Shown here piece by piece: positions 18,334 through 31,275 of a DNA stretch of 64,000 nt (position 1 is its first letter; every line of letters starts with the position of its first letter). The position numbers and the translations under genes are program-made. The notes below the pieces were generated by a model, which worked only from the letters and a program-made list of their open reading frames with translations, had not been told where the DNA came from and ran no database searches. Source of the stretch: Halosolutus gelatinilyticus (lineage in GTDB: Archaea > Halobacteriota > Halobacteria > Halobacteriales > Natrialbaceae); contig NZ_CP095491.1 in NCBI RefSeq assembly GCF_023028105.1, forward strand, positions 2,728,001 through 2,792,000. Direction: 5' to 3'.

Positions 18334-19131
18334 ATGGAGGTACTGATCGTCGGCGCGGGCTCGATGGGGACGTGGTTCGGCGGGGCCGTCGACGCCGACG
18401 TGACGTTCGCCGACGTCGATCGCGACGCCGCGAGCGCGGCGGCCGAAGCCGTCGGCGGCGACGTCGCCGATCTCGACGGGAGCGATCGGTACGACGTCGT
18501 CTGCGTCGCGGTGCCGATGGCCCACGTCGTCGACGCGATCGCGGCCCACGCCGGTCGGGCGGAGCGAGCCGTCGTCGACGTCTCGGGCGTGATGGGAGCG
18601 CCGCTGGACGCGATGGCCGAGCACGCTCCGGAGCTCGAAACGGCGAGTCTGCACCCGCTTTTCGCCCCGGAACGCGCGCCCGGATCGATCGCAGTGGTCC
18701 GCGACGAACCGGGACCGGCGACCGAGTCGATCCTGGAGGCGCTGTCGGCCCGGAGGAACGACCTCGTCGAGACGACGGCGCCCGAACACGACGAGGCGAT
18801 GGAGACGGTGCAGGCCGCGACCCACGCGGCCGTCCTCTCGTTCGCGCTCGCGGCCGAGTCCGTCCCCGAGGGCTTCGAGACGCCGATCTACGCGGAACTC
18901 CGGCGGCTGGCCGAGACGATGACCGAGGGGACGCCGCGCGTGTACACGGACATCCAGCGGACGTTCGATGGCGCCGACGCCGTCGCCGCCGCCGCCGCAG
19001 CGATCGCCGACGCCGACGCCGACGAACTCGAAACGATGTACCGCGAGGCGGCAGCCAAGTGGCACGACGGCCGGCCGGAGTCGGATCGATTCGTCCGATC
19101 CGACGCGAACCTCAGAGGTGACAACGAGTGA
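18334..19131 (+). CDS. tyrA: Prephenate dehydrogenase
   Basis: The 265-aa protein opens with a Rossmann NAD(P) motif GAGSMGTWFG (residues 7-16) and continues with VVCVAVPMAHVVDAI, VVDVSGVMGAPLDAM and SLHPLFAPERAPG, the typical TyrA segments, ending in the helical dimerisation domain. It oxidises prephenate to 4-hydroxyphenylpyruvate on the way to tyrosine. Its stop overlaps the GTG start of the next gene by four bases, so the two are translationally coupled. Confidence 0.9.
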   Translation: MEVLIVGAGSMGTWFGGAVDADVTFADVDRDAASAAAEAVGGDVADLDGSDRYDVVCVAVPMAHVVDAIAAHAGRAERAVVDVSGVMGAPLDAMAEHAPELETASLHPLFAPERAPGSIAVVRDEPGPATESILEALSARRNDLVETTAPEHDEAMETVQAATHAAVLSFALAAESVPEGFETPIYAELRRLAETMTEGTPRVYTDIQRTFDGADAVAAAAAAIADADADELETMYREAAAKWHDGRPESDRFVRSDANLRGDNE

Positions 19132-20669
19132 GCGACCAGCGCGAGGCGATCCGATCGAACGCCAAGTACCTGCGGAACGTCCGACCGATCGATCCGGACG
19201 AAATCTGCGAGTACGTGGAGGGGACGCCGCATCCGGCGGTCGTCCGCCAGCACCTGCGTGAGGATGCGGTCGACCTGGGCCTGCTCGAGCGCGAGGACGG
19301 CACGTTCGTCCCCGTCGAGGACGACCCCGTCCCGCCTCGTCGCGGCCCCATCGAACGGTTCCCCGCCCGCTACGAGTCGCGGGTCGAGGACTTCCTGGTC
19401 GACCGCTACGGGGTGAACTGGCACGAGGGTCCCACGGGCGAGTTGCTCCGATCGACCGTCCGCCGGTTCAAGGCCAGCTACCTCGACGGGCGACGCGTCG
19501 AGTACGACGACGACGTCGCGGCCGGCTACGCGATCTACCACCTGCCGGCCTACTACGCGGCCGTCCAGTACGCGCTGGACGACCTGGCCGATCGCGTCCT
19601 GCTCGATCGCACCCTTCGCGTGCTCGACGTCGGCGCCGGCGTGGGCGGTCCCGCGCTCGGCCTCGTCGACTACCTGCCCGGCGACGCCCTCGTCGAGTAC
19701 CACGCGATCGAACCCAGCGCGGCCGCGGACGTGCTCGACGAACTCCTCGAAGAGACCGGTCGGAACGTCCACGCCACGGTCCACCGAACGACCGCGGAGG
19801 CGTTCGATTCCGACGCGGTTGCTGACGACGATTTTACCCCCGCGCACCCGGACGACGGCTTCGACCTCGTGCTCGCCTGCAACGTCCTGAGCGAACTCGA
19901 GGACCCCCGCGCCGTCGCCGAATCGTACCTCGAACTGCTCGCGCCGGACGGGACCTTCCTCGCGATGGCCCCCGCGGACAAGAACACCAGCATCCAGCTG
20001 CGCGAGCTCGAACGCGAACTCGAAGGTCGGCCGATCGACGTCGCGCTCGACGATCCGGACGAGCTGACCGATCGGCAACGCGGTCGCGCGGGGCGAGTCA
20101 CCGTCTACGGCCCGACCGTTCGGCTCTGGTCCGGGAAGACTCCGTCCGATCGCGGCTGGTCGTTCGACGTCCGGCCCGATCTCTCGGTCCCGTCGTTCCA
20201 GCGGAATCTCGACGAGGCGACGCCTCCGAACGACCCGAACCACGACCCCGGCGAGTTCGTCAACGTCGACGTCCAGTTTTCCTACTCGCTGCTCCGTCTC
20301 GACGGCCGCCGCCGGATCGACCTCGACCCGGATACGTCGGAGTGGGCCCGGATGGCCGACATGGAACGCCACGTCACGAACCGGATCGACCTCGTGGCCG
20401 CGAAGCTCAGCCGATCGCTGAGCGGGGGCGACGATCGCGGCGACGGCCGATCCGGCCGATCGAATCCCCTCTTCAAGATCAGCGACGGCAGCGAGTCGAT
20501 CGACCACTACGCCGTCTGCACGACGGAGACCTCGCTCAACCGCCCGCTGCTCGAGGCCGACTACGGCGACGTCCTCGCGTTCGAGCAGATCCTCGCCCTC
20601 TGGAACGACGACGAGGAGGCCTACAACCTCGTCGTCGACGAGGAGACGATCGTCGATCCGATCGGCTAG
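19128..20669 (+). CDS. SAM-dependent methyltransferase, possibly Rsm22-like
   Basis: The 513-aa protein starts at a GTG that overlaps the end of tyrA. Its centre holds a class I methyltransferase fold: VLDVGAGVGGPALGLVDYL (motif I, from residue about 165), VEYHAIEPSAAA, FDLVLACNVLSELEDP and LAPDGTFLAMAP. The N-terminal 150 and C-terminal 200 residues are specific to a haloarchaeal family. Length and the NVLSEL segment recall Rsm22-type ribosomal methyltransferases, but the zinc-binding cysteines of that family are not obvious, so the target is uncertain. Coupling to tyrA may be incidental. Confidence 0.82.
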   Translation: MSDQREAIRSNAKYLRNVRPIDPDEICEYVEGTPHPAVVRQHLREDAVDLGLLEREDGTFVPVEDDPVPPRRGPIERFPARYESRVEDFLVDRYGVNWHEGPTGELLRSTVRRFKASYLDGRRVEYDDDVAAGYAIYHLPAYYAAVQYALDDLADRVLLDRTLRVLDVGAGVGGPALGLVDYLPGDALVEYHAIEPSAAADVLDELLEETGRNVHATVHRTTAEAFDSDAVADDDFTPAHPDDGFDLVLACNVLSELEDPRAVAESYLELLAPDGTFLAMAPADKNTSIQLRELERELEGRPIDVALDDPDELTDRQRGRAGRVTVYGPTVRLWSGKTPSDRGWSFDVRPDLSVPSFQRNLDEATPPNDPNHDPGEFVNVDVQFSYSLLRLDGRRRIDLDPDTSEWARMADMERHVTNRIDLVAAKLSRSLSGGDDRGDGRSGRSNPLFKISDGSESIDHYAVCTTETSLNRPLLEADYGDVLAFEQILALWNDDEEAYNLVVDEETIVDPIG

Positions 20670-21000
20670 TACTGTGCCTCGAGGCGGCTAGATCTTCCGT
20701 TGAAAGCGTATTCAAAGAGTTCACTGCTGTATCCGTATCTATTGAAACCACTACGAAAGCCCCTGACGTGATCGACCATCCGGGCCTCGCTGCGCGCTTC
20801 CTTCACTTCGTTCAGTCCAGTGCTTACGTCGGCCATCTTCCCGGAGCCAGCAGGGGCTTTCGTAGTGTTGTCCGCGGACGCGGAATACGTTACGCGCCTA
20901 TCAAAACCGATCGCACTACATTGTCCCGATAATCGATCGCGTCGTGCGAACGAGTGTCAAAAGCGGAGGGCTTTTCGCGTCGCCGACAAACCGACTACCT
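20670..21000. other. Intergenic region holding a short inverted-repeat element and the surE promoter region
   Basis: No coding frame of merit is present. The stretch holds the inverted-repeat element at 20749-20867 (separate entry) and, from about 20885, AT-richer sequence before surE. The 17-base arms of the element are the only strong symmetry. Confidence 0.5.
20749..20867. repeat. MITE-like element with 17-bp perfect terminal inverted repeats (copy 1)
   Basis: The ends are CACTACGAAAGCCCCTG (20749-20765) and its exact complement CAGGGGCTTTCGTAGTG (20851-20867). Between them are 85 bases with no open frame. Read on the minus strand, 20845-20820 matches 23 of 26 positions of a core in copy 2 at 48655-48680 (TCCGGGAAGA ... 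CGTAAGCAC), and the ends resemble those of copy 2. Two related copies with conserved ends and core make this a repeat family, possibly moved by a transposase elsewhere in the genome. No target-site duplication is evident. Confidence 0.75.
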
Positions 21001-21810
21001 ATGAGCGACGACCTCGAGATCCTGCTGACGAACGACGACGGGATCGGGAGTACGGGAATTCGGGCGCTGTACAACGCCCTCTCGGAGCGCGCGAACGTGA
21101 CCGTCGTCGCCCCCGCCAGCGATCAGAGCGCCTGCGGCCGATCGATCTCGCACGAAGTCGACGTCCGGGAGCACGAACTCGGCTACGCGGTCGAGGGGAC
21201 GCCCGCGGACTGCGTCGTCGCCGGCCTCGCGGAACTCGGCCCGGTCCCCGACATCGTCGTCGCGGGCTGTAACAAGGGCGCGAACCTCGGCGAGTACGTG
21301 CTCGGTCGATCAGGGACGATCAGCGCGGCGGTCGAAGCCGCCTTCTTCGACGTGCCCGCGGTCGCGACCTCGCTGTACGTGCCGGTCGACGACGAGACAC
21401 CGTTCGAGGAGATCGAACTCACCGCCGAGGACTTCAGCGAGGCGACGCGCGTCACGAAGTTCCTCGTCGAGCACGGCCTCCGGTCGGGGGTCTTCGAGCA
21501 CGCGGCCTACCTCAACGTCAACGTCCCGCTGCCGGACGGCGAGCCGGCGCCGATCGAGATCACGGAGCCCTCGAAGCGATACGAGATGGACGCCGTCCGA
21601 CGCGACGGCGTCGTCCACCTCCACGACCACGTCTGGGAGTCGATGGACCCCGAGTCGATCCCGGACCCCGAGGGAACCGATCGCCGGGCTGTCGCCGAGG
21701 GCCGGATCAGCCTCTCGCCGCTGACGGCGCCCCACACGACGAACCACCACGAGATTCTCGAGGACCTCGTCGCGGCGTACGCGGACCGCGCCGCGTCGAT
21801 CGATCGCTGA
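21001..21810 (+). CDS. surE: 5'/3'-nucleotidase SurE
   Basis: The 269-aa protein begins MSDDLEILLTNDDGIGSTGI with the SurE metal motif TNDDG, then VVAPASDQSACGRSIS, VEGTPADCVVAGL, VAGCNKGANLGEYVLGRSGTISAA and LNVNVP. SurE is a divalent-metal nucleoside monophosphatase acting on 5'- and 3'-nucleotides and short polyphosphate. The frame extends 19 codons upstream, but the ATG at 21001 gives the standard N-terminus. It is monocistronic. Confidence 0.95.
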   Translation: MSDDLEILLTNDDGIGSTGIRALYNALSERANVTVVAPASDQSACGRSISHEVDVREHELGYAVEGTPADCVVAGLAELGPVPDIVVAGCNKGANLGEYVLGRSGTISAAVEAAFFDVPAVATSLYVPVDDETPFEEIELTAEDFSEATRVTKFLVEHGLRSGVFEHAAYLNVNVPLPDGEPAPIEITEPSKRYEMDAVRRDGVVHLHDHVWESMDPESIPDPEGTDRRAVAEGRISLSPLTAPHTTNHHEILEDLVAAYADRAASIDR

Positions 21811-21987
21811 CCGAGGCCACTCCGGTCGGTAGTTCCGGGCCGGGCCGATCGGTAGTTTCGAATCGGCCCACTCGCCGGCGATCGACCGGAATCCGGCGAT
21901 CGTCGGCGGCCGGTCGGCGAGTCCCGATCGATTCACCGGGCGACGTCCGACCGGGGATGGTTTGTATCAGCGGGCCGAACGGGAGGT

Positions 21988-22218
21988 ATGACGACGGTCG
22001 AAATCGAGTACTGCGTCCCGTGCGGCTTCCTCGATCGAGCCGAAGCCGTCCAGCACGCGCTCCTCTCGACGCTCGGCGAGGAACTCGACGCCGTCACGCT
22101 CAGGACGGGCGATCACGGCGTGTTCGTCGTCCGCGTCGACGACGACGTCGTCTTCGACACGGCCGAGGACGCGTTCGACGTCGACGAGATCGTCCGCGAC
22201 GTTCGCGGTCGCCTGTAG
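21988..22218 (+). CDS. SelT/SelW/SelH-family (Rdx) small redox protein
   Basis: The 76-aa protein has the Rdx-family redox motif CVPC at residues 9-12 after MTTVEIEY, the position taken by selenocysteine in some homologues; here both positions are cysteine. The remainder (LRTGDHGVFVVRVDDDVVFDTAEDAF) matches the thioredoxin-like fold of the family with its G.F.V.V and V.....F pattern. The partner is unknown. It has its own promoter region and no close neighbour in the same direction except the winged-helix gene 224 bases on. Confidence 0.85.
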   Translation: MTTVEIEYCVPCGFLDRAEAVQHALLSTLGEELDAVTLRTGDHGVFVVRVDDDVVFDTAEDAFDVDEIVRDVRGRL

Positions 22219-22317
22219 TCCGGCCGCGGCGCCGAGAACCGATCGAAACGGGCTCGATCGGGTGTCGGAAACGTGATTGAATAACCGGCTTGCAGGTCGC
22301 AAGGCACGCGTTATTCG

Positions 22318-22333
22318 GTGACGGAACCGTCAC
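22318..22333. promoter_or_regulatory. Inverted repeat upstream of the winged-helix gene
   Basis: GTGACGGAACCGTCAC has perfect 7-bp arms around AA. It lies 110 bases before the winged-helix gene at 22443; a second inverted repeat, CTTGC...GCAAG, lies at 22289-22303. Either could be an operator, possibly for the small DNA-binding protein itself. There is no direct evidence of binding. Confidence 0.35.
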
Positions 22334-22442
22334 GATACGCATACCCAAACCAACACGCGCACGGACATATATGGTCAGAAACATAAGATCAAGGTAGGTG
22401 CGCGTTCAATCAGCGACAACCTCAACGAAGGGTGACCGACAC

Positions 22443-22838
22443 ATGGTATTCAATACGCTCAAAGCACGGCTCTCGTCTTTCTGGTCCTCCACAGACGCCG
22501 ACGAGGGGCAAACGACGGAGTCGCCACCGACCGCATCCGACGAACCGACACCCGATGATGACGAAACATTAAGTTACGCCGAACAGATCGAGTACGGCGT
22601 CGACGAACGCGAACTCCCCGACGAAGACAAAATTCTCAGATTGCTCGTCAAACGCGGCGGCCGCGTCGACGAAGCGACCGTTCGCGAGGAAACCGGCTGG
22701 TCAGCGGACCGCCTCAAATCGGTCATCGATCGGATGGAGGACGACGACCAGGTCAGCGCCATCACCGTCGGCCGCAAGCGCGTCATCTGCCGGCGCGGGT
22801 TCGAGCCGAAGGGGTATCGATCCCACTTGAACGAGTAG
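22443..22838 (+). CDS. Small winged-helix DNA-binding protein
   Basis: The 131-aa protein has an acidic, Thr/Ser/Pro-rich first half (residues 15-45) and a C-terminal winged helix (about 55-115: DKILRLLVKRGGRVDEATVREETGWSADRLKSVIDRMEDDDQV followed by the wing VGRKRVICR). The pattern is that of haloarchaeal MarR/ArsR-like regulators. The ATG at 22443 (MVFNTLKARL) is chosen over an upstream GTG frame because the amphipathic N-terminus starts there. Inverted repeats lie upstream. The regulated genes are unknown. Confidence 0.75.
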   Translation: MVFNTLKARLSSFWSSTDADEGQTTESPPTASDEPTPDDDETLSYAEQIEYGVDERELPDEDKILRLLVKRGGRVDEATVREETGWSADRLKSVIDRMEDDDQVSAITVGRKRVICRRGFEPKGYRSHLNE

Positions 22839-23187: not shown

Positions 23188-25410
23188 ATGTCGGGTGACG
23201 CGTCCGCCCAACGTGCGGGAGACGACCCCGCCCTGCGCGGCGAACTGCGAGTGGCGCCGTTCGAGGGCGGGGCGCTCACGCGTCACGTCGCGACGGCGTA
23301 CGACGAATTACGCGAGACGTACGGGTACGAATTGGTGGATATTCTGGTTGTGAAACGGTTTCCGACGGGGATCGAGGCGCTCTCGCAGGCGCTGGTCGAG
23401 GAACTGGCGCTTCCGAGTCGGCCGAACGTCAAGACGATCGCGCGCCACGCCTCGACGGTGCTGACCGAGCGCGCGCCGGAGACGCGAGTCCTCTCCGAGG
23501 TGGAACGCATCGAAACCCTGGCGATGGTGCTCGAGGGCCACGCGTGGGAGCACGACTACTTCGCGTCGGCCGCCGACCACGAGTCGTTCGGCCGGGACGT
23601 CGGTCGCATCCTGCTCGCCGGAACCTACAGCGGTCAGTTCGATCGGCCGGACGTCGACGCGGGACCGCACGGCGAGTTGCTCGCCGAACTGCAAACCGTC
23701 CGCGACGACTTTCACGACTGGCTCGAGACCCAGGGGTGGGTCGAACGACCCGACGTGCTCCGGCGGGCGACCGCGGCGCTCGCCGACGACGCGGTCCGAT
23801 CGACGATCGAGCGGGAGTTCGAGGCGATCGTCGCCGTCGGCTTCGAGGAGTTCGGCGCGCTCGAACGCCGCTATCTCGCGGCGCTCGCCGAGAACGCGAC
23901 GCTCGTCGCCGTGGGCGAAGAAGACGCGAGCATCGCACGGGTGTGGAACGAACCCGGATCGGTCGCGGATCTCGGCGGCTCCCGTCCCGTCGAACGGGTC
24001 GATCGGCTCCGGGATCGCGAGACGACGACCGATCGGGTCGCCCGCTTTCTGGCGACCGGCGACGAGTCACTACTTTCCGGCTGTGACGACCCGATCTACC
24101 GGATCGCGGAACCCACCTTTCACGAACAGCTGTCGACGATCGCGAACGAGATCGGCTATCTCAGAGCCGAGTACGGCTGGGACTACGACGATATCGCCGT
24201 CCTCGTCAAGGACTCGAACGGACCGATTCGGCGGATCCGCCGCGTTCTTCGGCGGGCCGGCATCCCGACCGCCTCCGCGACCGCGAACGGGCTGGGCGGC
24301 GATCGCGCCGTCCGCGAACTCCACGCCCTCGCGACGTATCACGCGACGACCGATCGCGAGGAACGCGACCGCGCTCGAAAACTCGTCGCCGATCGGCTGG
24401 GACGCTGGCCGCAGGACGCCGTCGACGCCGTTTCGTCGGCGTCGAGCGCGGCAGACAAGCTCGGCCGCTGGATCCTCGAAACGGATCTCAAGCGGCGGAT
24501 CGCCGAGAGCGAGCCGATCGAGGCGCGGGCCCAGTTTCACCACGTCTCGCGGGTGCTGGAGATCGCCGAGTTCGTCGAACGGGCCGATTTCGTGCCGAAC
24601 GGGTGGGACGGCTTTCTGCGCGTGCTCGAGCGGGCGATCACGTACGTCGCCTCGGACACCTACTCGACGAGCGTCGACGTCGAGGAAAACGGCGTGGTCG
24701 TCGACGCCGTGCGGATCTGCAAGCACGAGCGGCGGACGGCCGTCTTCCTCGTCGACGTACACGAGGGCCAATACCCCGAATCGCCCCGCCTGACGCGGCT
24801 CTTCCCGCAGGAGTGGGTCCGGGCCATGCCGGGGTACCCCGGCGTGACGACCCCCGCGGACGCCGACGTCCGATCGACGTTCGAGACGTCGCCCGAGACG
24901 ATCCACGAACCGTTCGAGGCGTACTACGCCGAACTCGCCAGACGCCAGCTGGCGATCGGGGCCCGGGCGGCGGCCGATCGGCTGTACTTCTGTACGGCCG
25001 GGAAGGACGATTCGGCGCTCGGAAGACGACAGCACCCGTCGCGATACCTCGACACCCTCGAAGAACACGCGGGCGTCGAGACGATCGAAATCGGCTCCGA
25101 GGACGCGCCCCGGGACGTCTACTCCCACGGCGAGGCGAGCGCGACCGTGCTCTCGGAGCCGTGGGACCAGCTCGAACGGATCCAGCAGGCCGCCAGCACC
25201 GGTTCCGCCTACGATCTGCGACGGGCCGAGCGGACGCTCGGCGCGATACAGACGCTGCTCGAGTCAGACGACCTCGACCCGCGGTTCGAACAGGCGGTGT
25301 ACGCCCAGATCGATCGGGCGCTCGGCGATGTGGGTGCCGGTCGGCCGGCCAACGAGACGAACGCCGATCGACCGGTTGACGGGACGGAGGTGGATTCGAG
25401 TGGCGAGTGA
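23188..25410 (+). CDS. AddB/RecC-like helicase-fold protein lacking a Walker A (subunit 1 of a split helicase-nuclease)
   Basis: The 740-aa protein resembles UvrD/AddB-type helicases in its later half: DDIAVLVKDSNGPIRRIRRVLRRAGIPTASATANGLG corresponds to the segment around motif IV, and VVVDAVRICKHERRTAVFLVDVHEGQYP to the motif V region. The N-terminal start (ELRVAPFEGGALTRHV), where AddB has a P-loop, has no GxGKT and no DExx box is seen, as in RecC. Its stop overlaps the GTG start of the next gene by 11 bases. An alternative GTG start at 23161 adds nine residues. I infer a structural, RecC-like role in a complex with the next two gene products. Confidence 0.7.
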   Translation: MSGDASAQRAGDDPALRGELRVAPFEGGALTRHVATAYDELRETYGYELVDILVVKRFPTGIEALSQALVEELALPSRPNVKTIARHASTVLTERAPETRVLSEVERIETLAMVLEGHAWEHDYFASAADHESFGRDVGRILLAGTYSGQFDRPDVDAGPHGELLAELQTVRDDFHDWLETQGWVERPDVLRRATAALADDAVRSTIEREFEAIVAVGFEEFGALERRYLAALAENATLVAVGEEDASIARVWNEPGSVADLGGSRPVERVDRLRDRETTTDRVARFLATGDESLLSGCDDPIYRIAEPTFHEQLSTIANEIGYLRAEYGWDYDDIAVLVKDSNGPIRRIRRVLRRAGIPTASATANGLGGDRAVRELHALATYHATTDREERDRARKLVADRLGRWPQDAVDAVSSASSAADKLGRWILETDLKRRIAESEPIEARAQFHHVSRVLEIAEFVERADFVPNGWDGFLRVLERAITYVASDTYSTSVDVEENGVVVDAVRICKHERRTAVFLVDVHEGQYPESPRLTRLFPQEWVRAMPGYPGVTTPADADVRSTFETSPETIHEPFEAYYAELARRQLAIGARAAADRLYFCTAGKDDSALGRRQHPSRYLDTLEEHAGVETIEIGSEDAPRDVYSHGEASATVLSEPWDQLERIQQAASTGSAYDLRRAERTLGAIQTLLESDDLDPRFEQAVYAQIDRALGDVGAGRPANETNADRPVDGTEVDSSGE

Positions 25411-26344
25411 CGCGCCCGCGGAGACGGCCGGGGAGCGGTCCGAGCCGATCGATCTCGCCGAGGTCGAGACCTACCTCCGTTGTCCCCGTCGGCACCAGTA
25501 CGAACACCGGCGGCGGATTCACACCGCGACGCGACGGGACGCGGTCGCCGCGCGGACCGCGATCTACCGGGCGGTGATCACGGCCGCGCTCGATCGGTGG
25601 TCCGCCGCGGCTCCGGATCGATCGACGCTGCGCGAGACCGCCACGGCCGCCCTGTACGAACACTTGGACGGCGCGTCGATCTTCGAGGGCCGACCGGGGA
25701 CCTCCCGGCAGCGCCGCTACGACGAGGCCACCGTTCGAACGGCGGTCGAGAACTACGTAGACGAGCGCGGCGAGGCCCACGCCGAGAGCGCGATCGCGAT
25801 CGGGGAGACGTACGCCTACGCGGCCGGCGGCGAGACCCTCGCCTGTCCCGTCGATCTCTTCAGGGAGGCCGACGGCGGATACGAGATCGTCCGGTTCGTC
25901 ACGACGCTCGACGGCGTCGTCTGGGAGGACCCGTACAGCGATCCGGTTGCGGACTACCGAAGCGGAGAGGGCTTCTACCCCCGAGAGGTCGGGAGCGTCC
26001 TCCGGGCGTACGCGACGATCCACGCGGTCGCCGCGGCCCACGACGTCAGCGCGCACAACGTGCGATTCCGGTACTACGCGATCGCCCAGGAGACCTACCC
26101 CGCCCACGACGCCGGTGGCCGGAACCCCCGACCCGAGGTCGTCGCCGCCGATCGGAACGTCACCGATCCGTGCTGGGACGCCGGCTCCGAGTGCGAAACG
26201 TTGCTCCGGGAGGTGGCCACCTCGGTCGCGGCCCGGGACTGGGATCCCGCCGATCGGTGGGACGCCATCGCGGCCAGATCGTGTCGCGACTGCAAGTACC
26301 GGTCCATGTGTCTCGACTACATCAACGAGGAGGTGCGATTCTGA
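25400..26344 (+). CDS. AddB/Cas4-type four-cysteine nuclease-fold protein with degenerate active site (subunit 2)
   Basis: The 314-aa protein starts at a GTG inside the end of the previous gene. Cys28 (VETYLRCPRRHQYEH) and the C-terminal Cys295, Cys298 and Cys304 (CRDCKYRSMC) reproduce the one-plus-three cysteine layout that holds a 4Fe-4S cluster in AddB and Cas4 nucleases. Between them the nuclease core reads CPVDLF...GGYEIVRFVTT, where an active enzyme would have D...ExK; the lysine is absent. It therefore looks like the C-terminal nuclease domain of AddB, split off and probably inactivated. Its stop is immediately followed by the ATG of the helicase gene at 26345. Confidence 0.72.
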   Translation: MASDAPAETAGERSEPIDLAEVETYLRCPRRHQYEHRRRIHTATRRDAVAARTAIYRAVITAALDRWSAAAPDRSTLRETATAALYEHLDGASIFEGRPGTSRQRRYDEATVRTAVENYVDERGEAHAESAIAIGETYAYAAGGETLACPVDLFREADGGYEIVRFVTTLDGVVWEDPYSDPVADYRSGEGFYPREVGSVLRAYATIHAVAAAHDVSAHNVRFRYYAIAQETYPAHDAGGRNPRPEVVAADRNVTDPCWDAGSECETLLREVATSVAARDWDPADRWDAIAARSCRDCKYRSMCLDYINEEVRF

Positions 26345-29300
26345 ATGGCTGAACGAGACGCGCTCGACGGCACCGGCGCGGCGTCGGACGACGAAGCGGC
26401 CGAGAGCCGGGATGCCCACGGCGACATCGAGGAGATCCGACCCCGAGGCACCCAACCCGACGTCATCGAGGCGGCGGACGATCGGATCATCGTCTCGGCC
26501 GGCGCCGGCACCGGGAAGACCCAGACGATGGCCTGGCGGATCGAGGCCGCGATCGAGGGCGACACCGCGCCCGATCGGATCCTCGTGCTGACGTTCGCGA
26601 ACAAGGCGGCCCACTCCATCCAGGACGACCTGGGCGACCTGCTCGACGACGGTCGAGGGTACGACGTCGACGCCTACACCTACCACTCCTTTTGCCACCG
26701 CCTGCTCGCCGAGTACGCCTACTACTTCGACCTCGACCCCGAGTTCGACCTCGTCACCGAGGACGAGCGCCGCGCGATCATCCAGTCGATCGTCGACGAC
26801 CTCGAGTACCGGTTCGTCGAGCCGATCGACGCCCGGACCGGCGACGATCGGGTGGAACGCGACCTCGTCGACTTCATCGAGGAACTCAAACGGTCGGGAA
26901 TCGATCCCGACGAGGTCGACGCGATCCTCCCCGAGACGGAAACGATCGCCGCCCTGTCGGAACTGGCGAGGCAACTTCGCGACCTAGGAATCCGGCTCTT
27001 CGACACCGATCGCAACCCGGCTCTGAAGGACGATCCGCTGGCCTTCGAGCGCCGGTTCGACGCCTACCGGCGAGTGCTCCGCCACCAGCGATCGAGACTC
27101 GAGGACGGAACGCCGATCGAGGCCGACGTCGCGGGCTACCTGGGATCGATGCTCGAACTGGTCGACGAGGTCGAGGGGCTGTTGCTCGACGGCGCTTCGA
27201 GCTGGTACGAGCGGTTCGTGCCGCAGGCGCTGTTCGCCGGCACCGTCCCGTCGTTCTTCGCGGACACGCATCAGACGCCGATCGGCCGTCTCGTCGCCTA
27301 CGTCGAGCTCCTCCAGGAAGCCCACGACTTCCTGCCGGGCTATCGCGCCTACGAGCGAACCCTGCGCGGCGAGGGCGCCTACCGGTCGATGCTGGATTAC
27401 GACGACCTCATCGGGTTCGCGACGGACTTACTCGACGACGACGGGGTTCGCGAGGAACTCGTCGGCCAGTGGGACGCGATTCTCTGCGACGAGTTCCAGG
27501 ACACCGACGGCGCGCAACTCGAGTTCATCACCCGGCTGGCCGCCGAGTCGGAGCTGTTCGTCATCGGCGACGCGGACCAGGCCATCTACGAGTGGCGGGG
27601 TGCCCACCCCGAGAACATGGCCCGGATCACCGACGAACTCGACGACTTCGCGTCGTACAATCTCGACCTCAACTTCCGATCGCCGGACGCCGTCCTGGAC
27701 CTCGCGGCCGAGCTGCCGGCCGACACGCACGGCCTCGACGCGCACAAGGACGACGTCGAGAACGCCGTCGTCAGGGTCGACGCCGCGGACGACGAGGACG
27801 AGCAGGCGACGCAGGTGAGCACGGCCATCTCCAAGCTGATCAAGGGCGAGTTCTCGTCGATCGACCGGGCCGACCTGGGCGACGTCGCGGTGCTCGTGCG
27901 GACGAACCGGCAGGCGAACCTGGTCGCGAGCCACCTCGACGAGGCCTGTCTCCCCTACGAGCTGCCCCACGACGCGGGCGGCGACGTGTCGCCGGGAATC
28001 GAGACGGTGCTCGCCTACCTGCGGGTGCTGGTCGACCCGCACGACGACGTCAGCCTCAACCGCGTGCTCGCGGTGTTCTACCGGTTCTCGGCGGCCGATC
28101 TGGATCGTCTCAACCGCGGCCCCGGAAGCGCGTACGACGAACTCACCGATCGACCCGCGAGCGAGTTCGACGCCCCCGATCGCGTCGGGCGGGCGCGATC
28201 GCACGTCGAGGAACTGCGCGAGGTTCGGCGCAGCCGCTCGATCTCGGAGCTGTACGCCGAACTCACGTCAACGACGAACTTCGAGTGGTTTCTCACCGCC
28301 GACGAGCGACGCGACCTCGCGGCGATCGAGCGGCTGATCGAGACGTTCGACGAGGGCCGGGTCACGCAGTCGACGCTCACGGAGGCGTTCGTCTCGTACG
28401 TCGAACTGCAGGGCGACCTCGCCGGCAGGGATCGCGGCGGGACGATCGAGACGGCCGAGAAGGCCGCGGACAAGATCAACGTCATGACGATCTTCCAGGC
28501 CAAGGGCCTGGAGTTCGACGTCGTCCTCCTGCCGTTTTTGAGCGCGGACGACTGGCCGCCGCTCCCGCCTGGCCGGTTCCCGAATCCCTACGCGAAGTCG
28601 ACCCACTCGTTCGCGGCGATCGCTGACCTCGTCGAGGGCGATCGCGCGACCTCGCTGCGGACCGACCTCTCGGCCAGGGAGGTCCCCGAGGAGTGGCGCA
28701 TCCTCCACGTCGGAATCACCCGCGCTCGGGAGCGGCTGTTCCTGTTCGGCCGCAACCCGGCGGATCCCGACGTCCCCGCGGCCCAACTGGATGGCTACCT
28801 CCCCGACGAGATCGAGTGGAGCGTCCGCGGGCCCCACATGGACGTCTGGGAGCGGATCACCGACGCCTACGAGACGCTCGACGATCGGTTCACGACCGAT
28901 CTCACCGATCCGATCGACGCCGGGCTGGACCGCGACTCCGTCTCGCTGCAGTACTTCCAAGATCCGATCTCGCTGGACGCGGCGATCGACGAGGCGCTGG
29001 ACCTGGCGAGCCAGCTTCGGGCGGGGACGCTCTCCGGAACCGATCCCGAGGCGATCGGCGTCCGGACCGACCCGACGCGAGACCTCGAGCGGCGGCTCGA
29101 ACGGCGCCACAGCCACAGTTCGATCGAGACCGTGACGGGCTGCGAGCGGCGCCACGTCCTCGATCACGTTCTCTACGCGTTCGAGGATCCGCTCGCCTAC
29201 AGCGTGCCCGACTCGCCCGACGCGACCGGGCCGACGCCGACCGCGGTCGGGACGCTCTTCCACGCCGTCGCGGAGGAGGCGTTTTGGCGCAGCTACGAGA

Positions 29301-29848
29301 GCCGGGACCAGTGGGCCGCCGCCTGCGAGCGGCTCGGTCGCGCGCACGGAACGACGGACGCGATCGACGAGGCGAAGCGGTGCGTCGACCGGTACTTCGA
29401 GACCGCCGCCGCCGACTGGGAGTCGGTCGGGGCGGAGATCCCGTTCGAACTCGACCCGAACGAGTCGGGCGTCTCCGGGACGATCGTCGGCGAGATCGAC
29501 GCGATCGCGCGCGATCTCGACGGCACCGTCGTCGTCCTCGACTACAAAACCGGGAGCCGGCGGATGGCCCCGGAGGAGAGTTCGCAGCTCCTGCTGTACC
29601 TGCTCGCCGCCCGGCGGACGCTCTCGGTGCCGATCGAGGCGGCCGGGTACGTGTACGTCGGCGAGGCCGGCCCCGACGTGCAGCTAGCCGACGCCGAGCA
29701 GTTGCTCGACGCGCGTCCCGCGCTGGACCGCGCCCTTCGGACCGCGGACGAGAGTCAGTTCGGGGACGATAGCGACGGGAGACACTGTTACGACTGTCCG
29801 CACAAGTCACTCGGCTGCGCCTCCGACGAGTTCTACGGGCGCGAGTGA
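26345..29848 (+). CDS. UvrD/AddA-like helicase fused to PD-(D/E)XK nuclease with four-cysteine cluster (subunit 3)
   Basis: The 1167-aa protein is a superfamily 1A helicase: Walker A AGAGTGKT with Lys58, Walker B ILCDEFQD with Asp382/Glu383, motif III VIGDADQAIYEWRGAHP, motif V FQAKGLEFDVVLLPF and motif VI RILHVGITRARERLFLFG. From about residue 925 comes a RecB-type nuclease: Cys933, GEIDAI with Asp1052, VLDYKTG with Asp1066 and Lys1068, and the closing Cys1148, Cys1151 and Cys1158. Both ATPase and nuclease sites look intact. It is the third gene of the operon, with no gap from subunit 2. The expected role is processing double-strand ends for recombination or degrading foreign DNA. Confidence 0.92.
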   Translation: MAERDALDGTGAASDDEAAESRDAHGDIEEIRPRGTQPDVIEAADDRIIVSAGAGTGKTQTMAWRIEAAIEGDTAPDRILVLTFANKAAHSIQDDLGDLLDDGRGYDVDAYTYHSFCHRLLAEYAYYFDLDPEFDLVTEDERRAIIQSIVDDLEYRFVEPIDARTGDDRVERDLVDFIEELKRSGIDPDEVDAILPETETIAALSELARQLRDLGIRLFDTDRNPALKDDPLAFERRFDAYRRVLRHQRSRLEDGTPIEADVAGYLGSMLELVDEVEGLLLDGASSWYERFVPQALFAGTVPSFFADTHQTPIGRLVAYVELLQEAHDFLPGYRAYERTLRGEGAYRSMLDYDDLIGFATDLLDDDGVREELVGQWDAILCDEFQDTDGAQLEFITRLAAESELFVIGDADQAIYEWRGAHPENMARITDELDDFASYNLDLNFRSPDAVLDLAAELPADTHGLDAHKDDVENAVVRVDAADDEDEQATQVSTAISKLIKGEFSSIDRADLGDVAVLVRTNRQANLVASHLDEACLPYELPHDAGGDVSPGIETVLAYLRVLVDPHDDVSLNRVLAVFYRFSAADLDRLNRGPGSAYDELTDRPASEFDAPDRVGRARSHVEELREVRRSRSISELYAELTSTTNFEWFLTADERRDLAAIERLIETFDEGRVTQSTLTEAFVSYVELQGDLAGRDRGGTIETAEKAADKINVMTIFQAKGLEFDVVLLPFLSADDWPPLPPGRFPNPYAKSTHSFAAIADLVEGDRATSLRTDLSAREVPEEWRILHVGITRARERLFLFGRNPADPDVPAAQLDGYLPDEIEWSVRGPHMDVWERITDAYETLDDRFTTDLTDPIDAGLDRDSVSLQYFQDPISLDAAIDEALDLASQLRAGTLSGTDPEAIGVRTDPTRDLERRLERRHSHSSIETVTGCERRHVLDHVLYAFEDPLAYSVPDSPDATGPTPTAVGTLFHAVAEEAFWRSYESRDQWAAACERLGRAHGTTDAIDEAKRCVDRYFETAAADWESVGAEIPFELDPNESGVSGTIVGEIDAIARDLDGTVVVLDYKTGSRRMAPEESSQLLLYLLAARRTLSVPIEAAGYVYVGEAGPDVQLADAEQLLDARPALDRALRTADESQFGDDSDGRHCYDCPHKSLGCASDEFYGRE

Positions 29849-30186: not shown

Positions 30187-31275
30187 TCAGTCCTCGATGG
30201 TGAGTTTCGACCCGACAGTTTTACTCTCCCGATCACCACCCCTCACATCGCTGTTCCGAAGGTCGCTCAGTGAACGTCCCTCGAACCCCGGATGGCACCA
30301 GAATTTGTATCCGTTTAGCGCGTCGTCCCGGTCCCGTCCAACGAGTTCGTGCAGGAGTTCCTTCGTTAGACCGGTGAACGAGTACACGTTCTCGTCGTGG
30401 TCCCACCGGGCGTTGTCGCTTCGACCGGTATCACCCGTGACGGTGGCCCACCAGAAGTCATCGTCCTCCGACCACTCGAGATCTGCTCCTTCCGGCACAC
30501 GTTCGGGATCGAAATACACCTTCTCGCCGGGTTTCAGCACCTCGCGCTCGAGCAGAACGTTGATGGCCGCAGGTCGGCGCGACGTCTTCCGTTGTTTTTC
30601 TTGTTTCTCCCGGCGCTTCGTCATGTATTCCTCGGCCTCGGCAACCGGAATGACCTGCTGGCTGTTGAGGAGAACTCGACCCTGGTGTTCGTAGGCTTCG
30701 ATCCTCGTACAGGTGATGTCCATTCCGTACTCCTCGATTAGCCACATCACGGGAGCCGTGATTTCAGTCCCGAACCGACCCGCCGCCAGTAAGAGACGAG
30801 GCTTCTGATCGAGTTCGAACTCGGCCCACCCATCACTCGTCAGAACGATCTTTTCCTCCCCTCCCTCGAGAAAATCGACGAAGGTCTGTCCGACTTCTTC
30901 GGGCGTCAGCTCCTCTTCGTTCCGTTCGCTCCAGAACTCGCGGTAGTCCTTTTGGATGTTTTCGGCGGTCAGCGTCGCGCAGTAGCTTGCGTACTTGATG
31001 GCCTGAAGGTCCGTGGTTCGGTCAGCTCTATCGCGTTTGAGCTCGATGACGACCAGCGTTCCCGTCCGGTCGAGGGCGAGAATATCGAGCCGATCCAGCG
31101 TGTCTTCGAAGTTGGCGTACTCGGACGTGATAACCAGCAGGTCGTCGCCCAGGATTCGAGGTTGCTCGATCGCCCATTCTTGGAGATCCTGGCGCTCCAG
31201 TATCCCCAACTCGGACAACGCCTGCTCCTCGATCCCCTCGAGAACGTCGTTTTCATCGTCGATACTGAATATCAT
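30187..31275 (-). CDS. NucS-like PD-(D/E)XK nuclease with RAMA-like C-terminal domain
   Basis: The 362-aa protein has an N-terminal DUF91/NucS-type nuclease: a helix QEWAIEQPRILGDDLLVI (about 32-49), then DRLDILALDRTGTLVVIELK with Asp64, Glu78 and Lys80 as the D-x13-ExK core. A middle helical region with a basic stretch (TKRREKQEKQRKTSRRP) leads to a C-terminal domain (about 240-345) ending NGYKFWCHPGFEGRSLSDLR, which resembles the RAMA domain found beside restriction and modification enzymes. It lies on an island right after a broken chromosomal gene. I infer a defence or DNA-repair nuclease; methylation-directed cutting is a possibility, not shown. Confidence 0.75.
   Translation of the reverse strand: MIFSIDDENDVLEGIEEQALSELGILERQDLQEWAIEQPRILGDDLLVITSEYANFEDTLDRLDILALDRTGTLVVIELKRDRADRTTDLQAIKYASYCATLTAENIQKDYREFWSERNEEELTPEEVGQTFVDFLEGGEEKIVLTSDGWAEFELDQKPRLLLAAGRFGTEITAPVMWLIEEYGMDITCTRIEAYEHQGRVLLNSQQVIPVAEAEEYMTKRREKQEKQRKTSRRPAAINVLLEREVLKPGEKVYFDPERVPEGADLEWSEDDDFWWATVTGDTGRSDNARWDHDENVYSFTGLTKELLHELVGRDRDDALNGYKFWCHPGFEGRSLSDLRNSDVRGGDRESKTVGSKLTIED

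Follow-up and report, generated by a model that had tools for sequence, protein, structure and literature searches.

A probable AddAB-type helicase-nuclease of haloarchaea with AddB divided between two proteins, one of which lacks the nuclease motif

Three coupled genes of Halosolutus gelatinilyticus (denoted A, B and C), located in the window (the whole stretch of 64,000 nucleotides analyzed here), probably encode an AddAB-type enzyme with a single motor and a single cutter, in which AddB is split into two proteins (A and B) and B is inactive; this enzyme would derive from a two-nuclease ancestor and would be chromosomally fixed in Natrialbaceae. The assignment to the AddAB type, with AddB in two pieces, follows from the matches of A to the helicase-like domain of AddB, of B to the nuclease domain of AddB, and of C to AddA. 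The relation to AddAB that was proposed in the initial annotation is thus borne out by profile, fold and PDB searches, with A plus B equivalent to a single AddB and C the counterpart of AddA. Haloarchaea accordingly appear to gain a previously unrecognized AddAB-type DNA-end enzyme; no description of the trio as AddAB-like was found in the open-access literature, which was the scope of the survey.

Table 1. Positions in the window of the three genes, their diagnostic residues and the upstream gene block
Feature	Position	Strand	Remarks
Gene A	23188..25410	+	740 aa; AddB-helicase-like subunit, SF1A fold, without Walker A/DExx (motor predicted dead)
Gene B	25400..26344	+	314 aa, GTG start; separate AddB/Cas4-type nuclease fold, degenerate catalysis, four-Cys cluster kept
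Gene C	26345..29848	+	1167 aa; AddA-like UvrD motor fused to intact PD-(D/E)XK nuclease, own four-Cys cluster
B Cys28, first cluster cysteine (C-P-R-R)	25481..25483	+	invariant, 102 trios
B Arg57, position of the motif-I His in active relatives (G-x-x-Y-H-E-T-I-E)	25568..25570	+	trio alignment
B Asp152, one catalytic-position acid retained across all homologs	25853..25855	+	homolog alignments
B Arg165-Phe166-Val167, position of Asp-Tyr-Lys in active relatives; (D/E)xK lost	25892..25900	+	
B Cys295, Cys298, Cys304, remainder of the Fe-S type cluster (C-x2-C-x5-C)	26282..26311	+	invariant
C Walker A, GAGTGKT	26501..26521	+	Lys and Thr invariant in homologs
C Walker B, DEFQDTD	27488..27508	+	homolog alignment
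C Cys933, first cysteine of the C cluster	29141..29143	+	invariant
C His973, nuclease motif I	29261..29263	+	invariant
C nuclease active site, Asp1052 ... Asp1066-Tyr-Lys1068	29498..29548	+	invariant
C Cys1148, Cys1151, Cys1158, remainder of the C cluster	29786..29818	+	invariant
Upstream synteny block: dehydrogenase, methyltransferase, SurE, wHTH DUF7343	18334..22838	+	common to Natrialba-type trios

The tight coupling of the three genes noted in the initial annotation is confirmed (all are on the forward strand, with an 11-nt overlap between A and B and no gap between B and C), and in nearly all other trios the stop of one gene overlaps the start of the next by 4 or 8 nt. The conservation of the gene neighborhood, which was to be checked, also holds: the order A-B-C is constant across about 100 haloarchaeal trios, so that the association of these genes is not a matter of chance. 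In all trios, B is a separate gene.

Protein A was described as a helicase-fold protein devoid of Walker A and DExx box, and the alignments, the profile search and the fold match all agree with this description. Both motifs are absent from every aligned homolog of A, and Pfam detects only a weak trace of UvrD_C (E = 0.03). A profile search against the PDB sequences identifies Bacillus subtilis AddB as the best match (3u44_B, E = 6.3e-9), with UvrD and PcrA, and then AdnA, ranking below it. A Foldseek search with the AlphaFold2 model of A (pLDDT 84) recovers the SF1A fold, with E-values of about 1e-21 to UvrD and AddB and the top TMq (0.60) for AddB. The alternative that A is not a helicase-like protein at all, which the initial annotation had itself raised, is ruled out by these profile and fold searches. 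In hhalign comparisons, where the archaeal AddB and AddA profiles come from AddAB pairs in the other classes that make up the phylum, A scores 148 against AddB (98.9%) versus 105 against C, 103 against UvrD-Cas4 fusions and 90 against AddA. Judging from these profiles and the structural model, A is the predicted counterpart of the AddB helicase-like domain, without motor activity.

The complete UvrD helicase, intact nuclease and one-plus-three cysteine arrangement ascribed to C are likewise recovered in the alignment of its homologs. Pfam detects UvrD and PDDEXK_1 domains, and C contains GAGTGKT, DEFQDTD, H973, D1052, D1066-Y-K1068 and C933/C1148/C1151/C1158, with invariance of the catalytic and cysteine positions in 18 homologs. 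With hhalign, C aligns to archaeal AddA over its full length with a score of 645 and to the UvrD-Cas4 fusions, which carry the same cysteine cluster, with a score of 560. Given that C possesses this cluster whereas the archaeal AddA profile examined shows no invariant cysteine cluster, C is not a plain AddA; bacterial AddA is likewise not known to have such a cluster. Both A (weakly, E = 2.8e-4) and C (through its UvrD domain) match models of GajB, a component of Gabija, and no match to GajA is detected in A, B or C.

For B, the initial annotation predicted a separate four-cysteine nuclease fold of the AddB/Cas4 type without the lysine of the ExK motif, and alignment and fold search agree. B matches PF12705 (PDDEXK_1) with an E-value of 3.7e-7 and retains D152 and the four cysteines C28, C295, C298 and C304; the motif-I histidine is replaced by R57 and the D-Y-K motif by R165-F166-V167. 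Foldseek with the predicted model (pLDDT 88) identifies AddB as the best match (4cej_B and 3u4q_B, probability 1.00), AdnA also reaching a probability of 1.00, and the matches after the AddB nuclease domain are RecE, EXO5, AdnA and Dna2. The relation to the AddB nuclease emerges from the fold search only, the profile search of B against the PDB sequences giving no relevant match; against the Cas4 model TIGR00372, B scores 18 bits, below the curated cut-off of 65. The Fe-S cluster of B is putative, being deduced from the cysteines only.

Comparison of 102 distinct trios shows that the state of B is binary, with 47 intact and 55 degenerate copies, that of the window among the latter. All 47 intact B proteins keep G-x-x-Y/L-H and D-N...D-Y-K; DYK is found in none of the 55 degenerate ones, in which the histidine and the acid-x-Lys are both gone and the substitutes vary (RFV, RYR, QYQ, RLT). 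The four cysteines and D152 are retained in 102 of 102 trios. In a tree built from the columns of A and C, with B left out (31 degenerate and 10 intact rows), a single change separates the degenerate from the intact trios (SH-aLRT 100); the trio of the window sits on a long branch, so its fine placement within this tree is unsure. The dN/dS values for close pairs are 0.11-0.38 for degenerate B, 0.05-0.23 for A and 0.09-0.25 for C. The initial annotation had also envisaged that homologs of B might keep ExK, so that this copy would be merely mutated. The first part holds, because the sister clade and a second copy in the same genome do keep the motif, but the second does not, because the loss dates back to the ancestor of a whole clade (55 distinct trios) that evolves under purifying selection. 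Local mutation of B is excluded by this clade-wide loss, which maps to one change on a tree built without B, and a pseudogene is excluded by the dN/dS values and the conserved cysteines. Degenerate B is predicted to be non-catalytic yet conserved, and its gene is not in decay. The intact state is probably ancestral, given that the motif is intact in AddB, the UvrD-Cas4 fusions and C alike.

Among the known systems, AddAB shows the closest correspondence, with AddA, in which an active SF1A motor is joined to a nuclease, resembling C, the inactive helicase-like N-terminal part of AddB resembling A, and the C-terminal four-cysteine nuclease fold of AddB resembling B. The trio differs from AddAB, both that of B. 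subtilis and the archaeal pairs from other classes of the phylum, in that AddB is split into two genes and C bears its own cysteine cluster; moreover, the AddB-type nuclease is catalytically dead in the clade of the window, whereas it is intact in the sister clade. In archaeal AddAB-type pairs of those other classes, the fused AddB adjoins AddA (loci L166, L168, L170, L171, L174 and L176-L178) and contains DYK along with a four-cysteine cluster with C-x3-C-x5-C spacing. The trio of the window resembles RecBCD in having a single nuclease that cuts, together with partners whose helicase and nuclease folds are both dead; RecC likewise unites a dead helicase and an inactivated nuclease domain, the latter forming a hoop for single-stranded DNA (PMC1185551). 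In contrast to RecBCD, there is no RecD-type second motor, as the coupled trio contains no further motor gene; unlike in RecC, the dead folds belong to two different proteins and B retains four cysteines; and the catalytic loss would have arisen separately, from a two-nuclease sister clade. The actinobacterial AdnAB also comprises a UvrD-like motor fused to a nuclease, and the AdnA nuclease is among the top structural matches of B and the sequence matches of the C nuclease; however, AdnA carries its active nuclease within a single fused chain, and both AdnAB subunits combine a UvrD motor with an active nuclease, whereas A and B are separate and B is dead in the clade of the window. The UvrD-Cas4 fusions of the PF12705 branch (PMC5704561) resemble C alone, with a UvrD motor followed by a four-cysteine nuclease in one chain, but they are stand-alone or lie beside restriction genes, and partners akin to A and B are not described for them. 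Taken together, the best reading is that the trio may be an archaeal variant of AddAB that followed a convergent, RecC-like route around one motor-cutter.

Under this reading, C would be the sole motor and the sole cutter, and A, like AddB and RecC, would guide the 3' strand through its inactive helicase channel. The Fe-S fold of B could clamp the broken end or guide the 5' strand, in the manner of the hoop formed by the inactivated RecC nuclease. After unwinding an end, the complex would degrade one or both strands by means of the C nuclease alone. In AddAB, a single SF1A motor serves two nucleases that each act on their own strand, and the inactive helicase domains of AddB and RecC scan Chi (PMC4824097). 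The division of labor after the fashion of RecBCD, and an Fe-S cluster kept in B solely for binding DNA ends, as conjectured in the initial annotation, would fit these precedents; complex formation, the cluster itself, polarity and any Chi-like response are inferred. The enzyme would most likely process DNA ends in Natrialbaceae, where it would be fixed in the chromosome, and would derive from a two-nuclease ancestor that is still present in defense settings.

The genomic settings of the two kinds of trio bear on this role and on the competing view that the trio is primarily an anti-invader degrader, both kinds destroying linear or nicked DNA of plasmids and viruses, and the degenerate kind being a chromosomally resident immune form rather than a repair enzyme. 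Intact trios are patchy in occurrence, some residing on plasmids, and their neighbors include type I restriction, SIR2, DUF262 and Mre11/Rad50-like genes. In one intact subclade, the trio directly follows, in a single operon, genes for a long-A Argonaute (pAgo) and a PLD protein of the AgaP type; among genomes with an Argonaute at least 85% identical to the type of this subclade, the trio is just downstream in 8 of 8, including the genome of the window. The pAgo-AgaP pair has been shown experimentally to provide defense in haloarchaea, in a study that mentions a nearby helicase gene and does not identify the trio as AddAB-like (PMC11442185), and UvrD-Cas4 fusions have been proposed as defense components (PMC5704561). 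The intact sister clade thus points to defense rather than repair, against the explanation preferred here. Degenerate trios, however, occupy fixed chromosomal sites in settings of housekeeping synteny, and none of 54 degenerate trios, that of the window included, has a pAgo, PLD or AAA marker neighbor. A, which 75 of the 194 haloarchaeal genomes encode, is nearly universal in a single family (46 of 50 genomes of Natrialbaceae, the family of the window). The upstream block (Table 1) is common to seven Natrialba-type loci and appears to mark a fixed chromosomal site, outside the machine itself; CBS, Nudix and FolP genes lie near most other degenerate trios. A primarily anti-invader function of the trio appears rather unlikely, if far from negligible. 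With the patterns used, no relative of A was found in IMG/VR, and a reading of viral spread was rejected.

Two further alternatives concern the proteins themselves. That B of the degenerate clade is still a nuclease through shifted catalytic residues is compatible with D152 and H127 being invariant or nearly so and with the purifying selection on B, but the complete lack of an aligned (D/E)xK among the 55 proteins, the varied substitutes, the lost motif-I histidine, and dN/dS values that tend to exceed those of A and C make it very improbable. It is also improbable that A, B and C are co-transcribed without an AddAB-like assembly, with C as a free UvrD-Cas4 helicase-nuclease and other roles for A and B: stand-alone archaeal fusions resembling C do exist, but overlaps couple the three genes in almost every trio, the state of B tracks the tree of A and C, and the closest match of A is AddB, a structural partner rather than the motor within AddAB.

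Returning to the AddAB-type enzyme with an inactive B, a bolder and tentative proposal, about which we are more doubtful than confident, is that an archaeal RecBCD-like single-nuclease enzyme arose from an Argonaute-linked two-nuclease defense AddAB, that its AddB half was divided and the nuclease domain turned into a non-catalytic Fe-S clamp for DNA ends independently of RecC, and that the defense form and the chromosomally fixed form now share one genome. The origin of the one-nuclease design of RecBCD from two-nuclease enzymes is known from the end product alone; here, the loss-of-nuclease step is directly testable because sister clades with active and inactive subunits exist, both represented in the genome of the window, with the degenerate trio in the window and an intact one elsewhere. 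The latter (locus L031, G000:C1:1956000-1972000) has an AgaP-type PLD gene and the gene for an 889-aa Argonaute directly upstream; the trio of the window is without pAgo or AgaP. An active trio that consistently shares an operon with Argonaute and AgaP could provide the unwinding that mesophilic Argonautes lack.

As regards resection, a review describes Haloferax volcanii as lacking both HerA and NurA (PMC7776575), which is at odds with the NurA-domain match obtained here for the H. volcanii control and for 192 of the 194 haloarchaeal genomes. The idea, prompted by that review, that haloarchaea lack HerA-NurA and that the trio is their resection enzyme is not borne out on this account. With NurA-domain proteins almost universal, haloarchaea show no obvious lack of a dedicated resection machine; the trio is not necessarily the principal one and is unlikely to be the only one.

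Several additional loci deserve mention. In nine intact-trio loci (L145:13375-14751 and relatives), a protein adjacent to the trio shows a weak match to DNA_pol_B_exo1, an RNase H-like exonuclease, and partly resembles the haloarchaeal Argonaute of L146. A divergent haloarchaeal version (L045:4901-10572, genome G022) has A and C each split in two, forming four overlapping genes; no B was found at this locus, and a gene combining PLD with an SF2 helicase follows. The genome of the window encodes a further PF12705 nuclease domain outside both trios, in a 915-aa frame (G000:C1:365455-366150). Within the window, the G+C content, about 0.69 up to the trio, drops to 0.54-0.58 immediately beyond it, between 30000 and 42000, with a peak of 0.64 at 34-36 kb; the first gene of this region, which is possibly an inserted element, is NucS_C-like and lies on the reverse strand (30187-31275).
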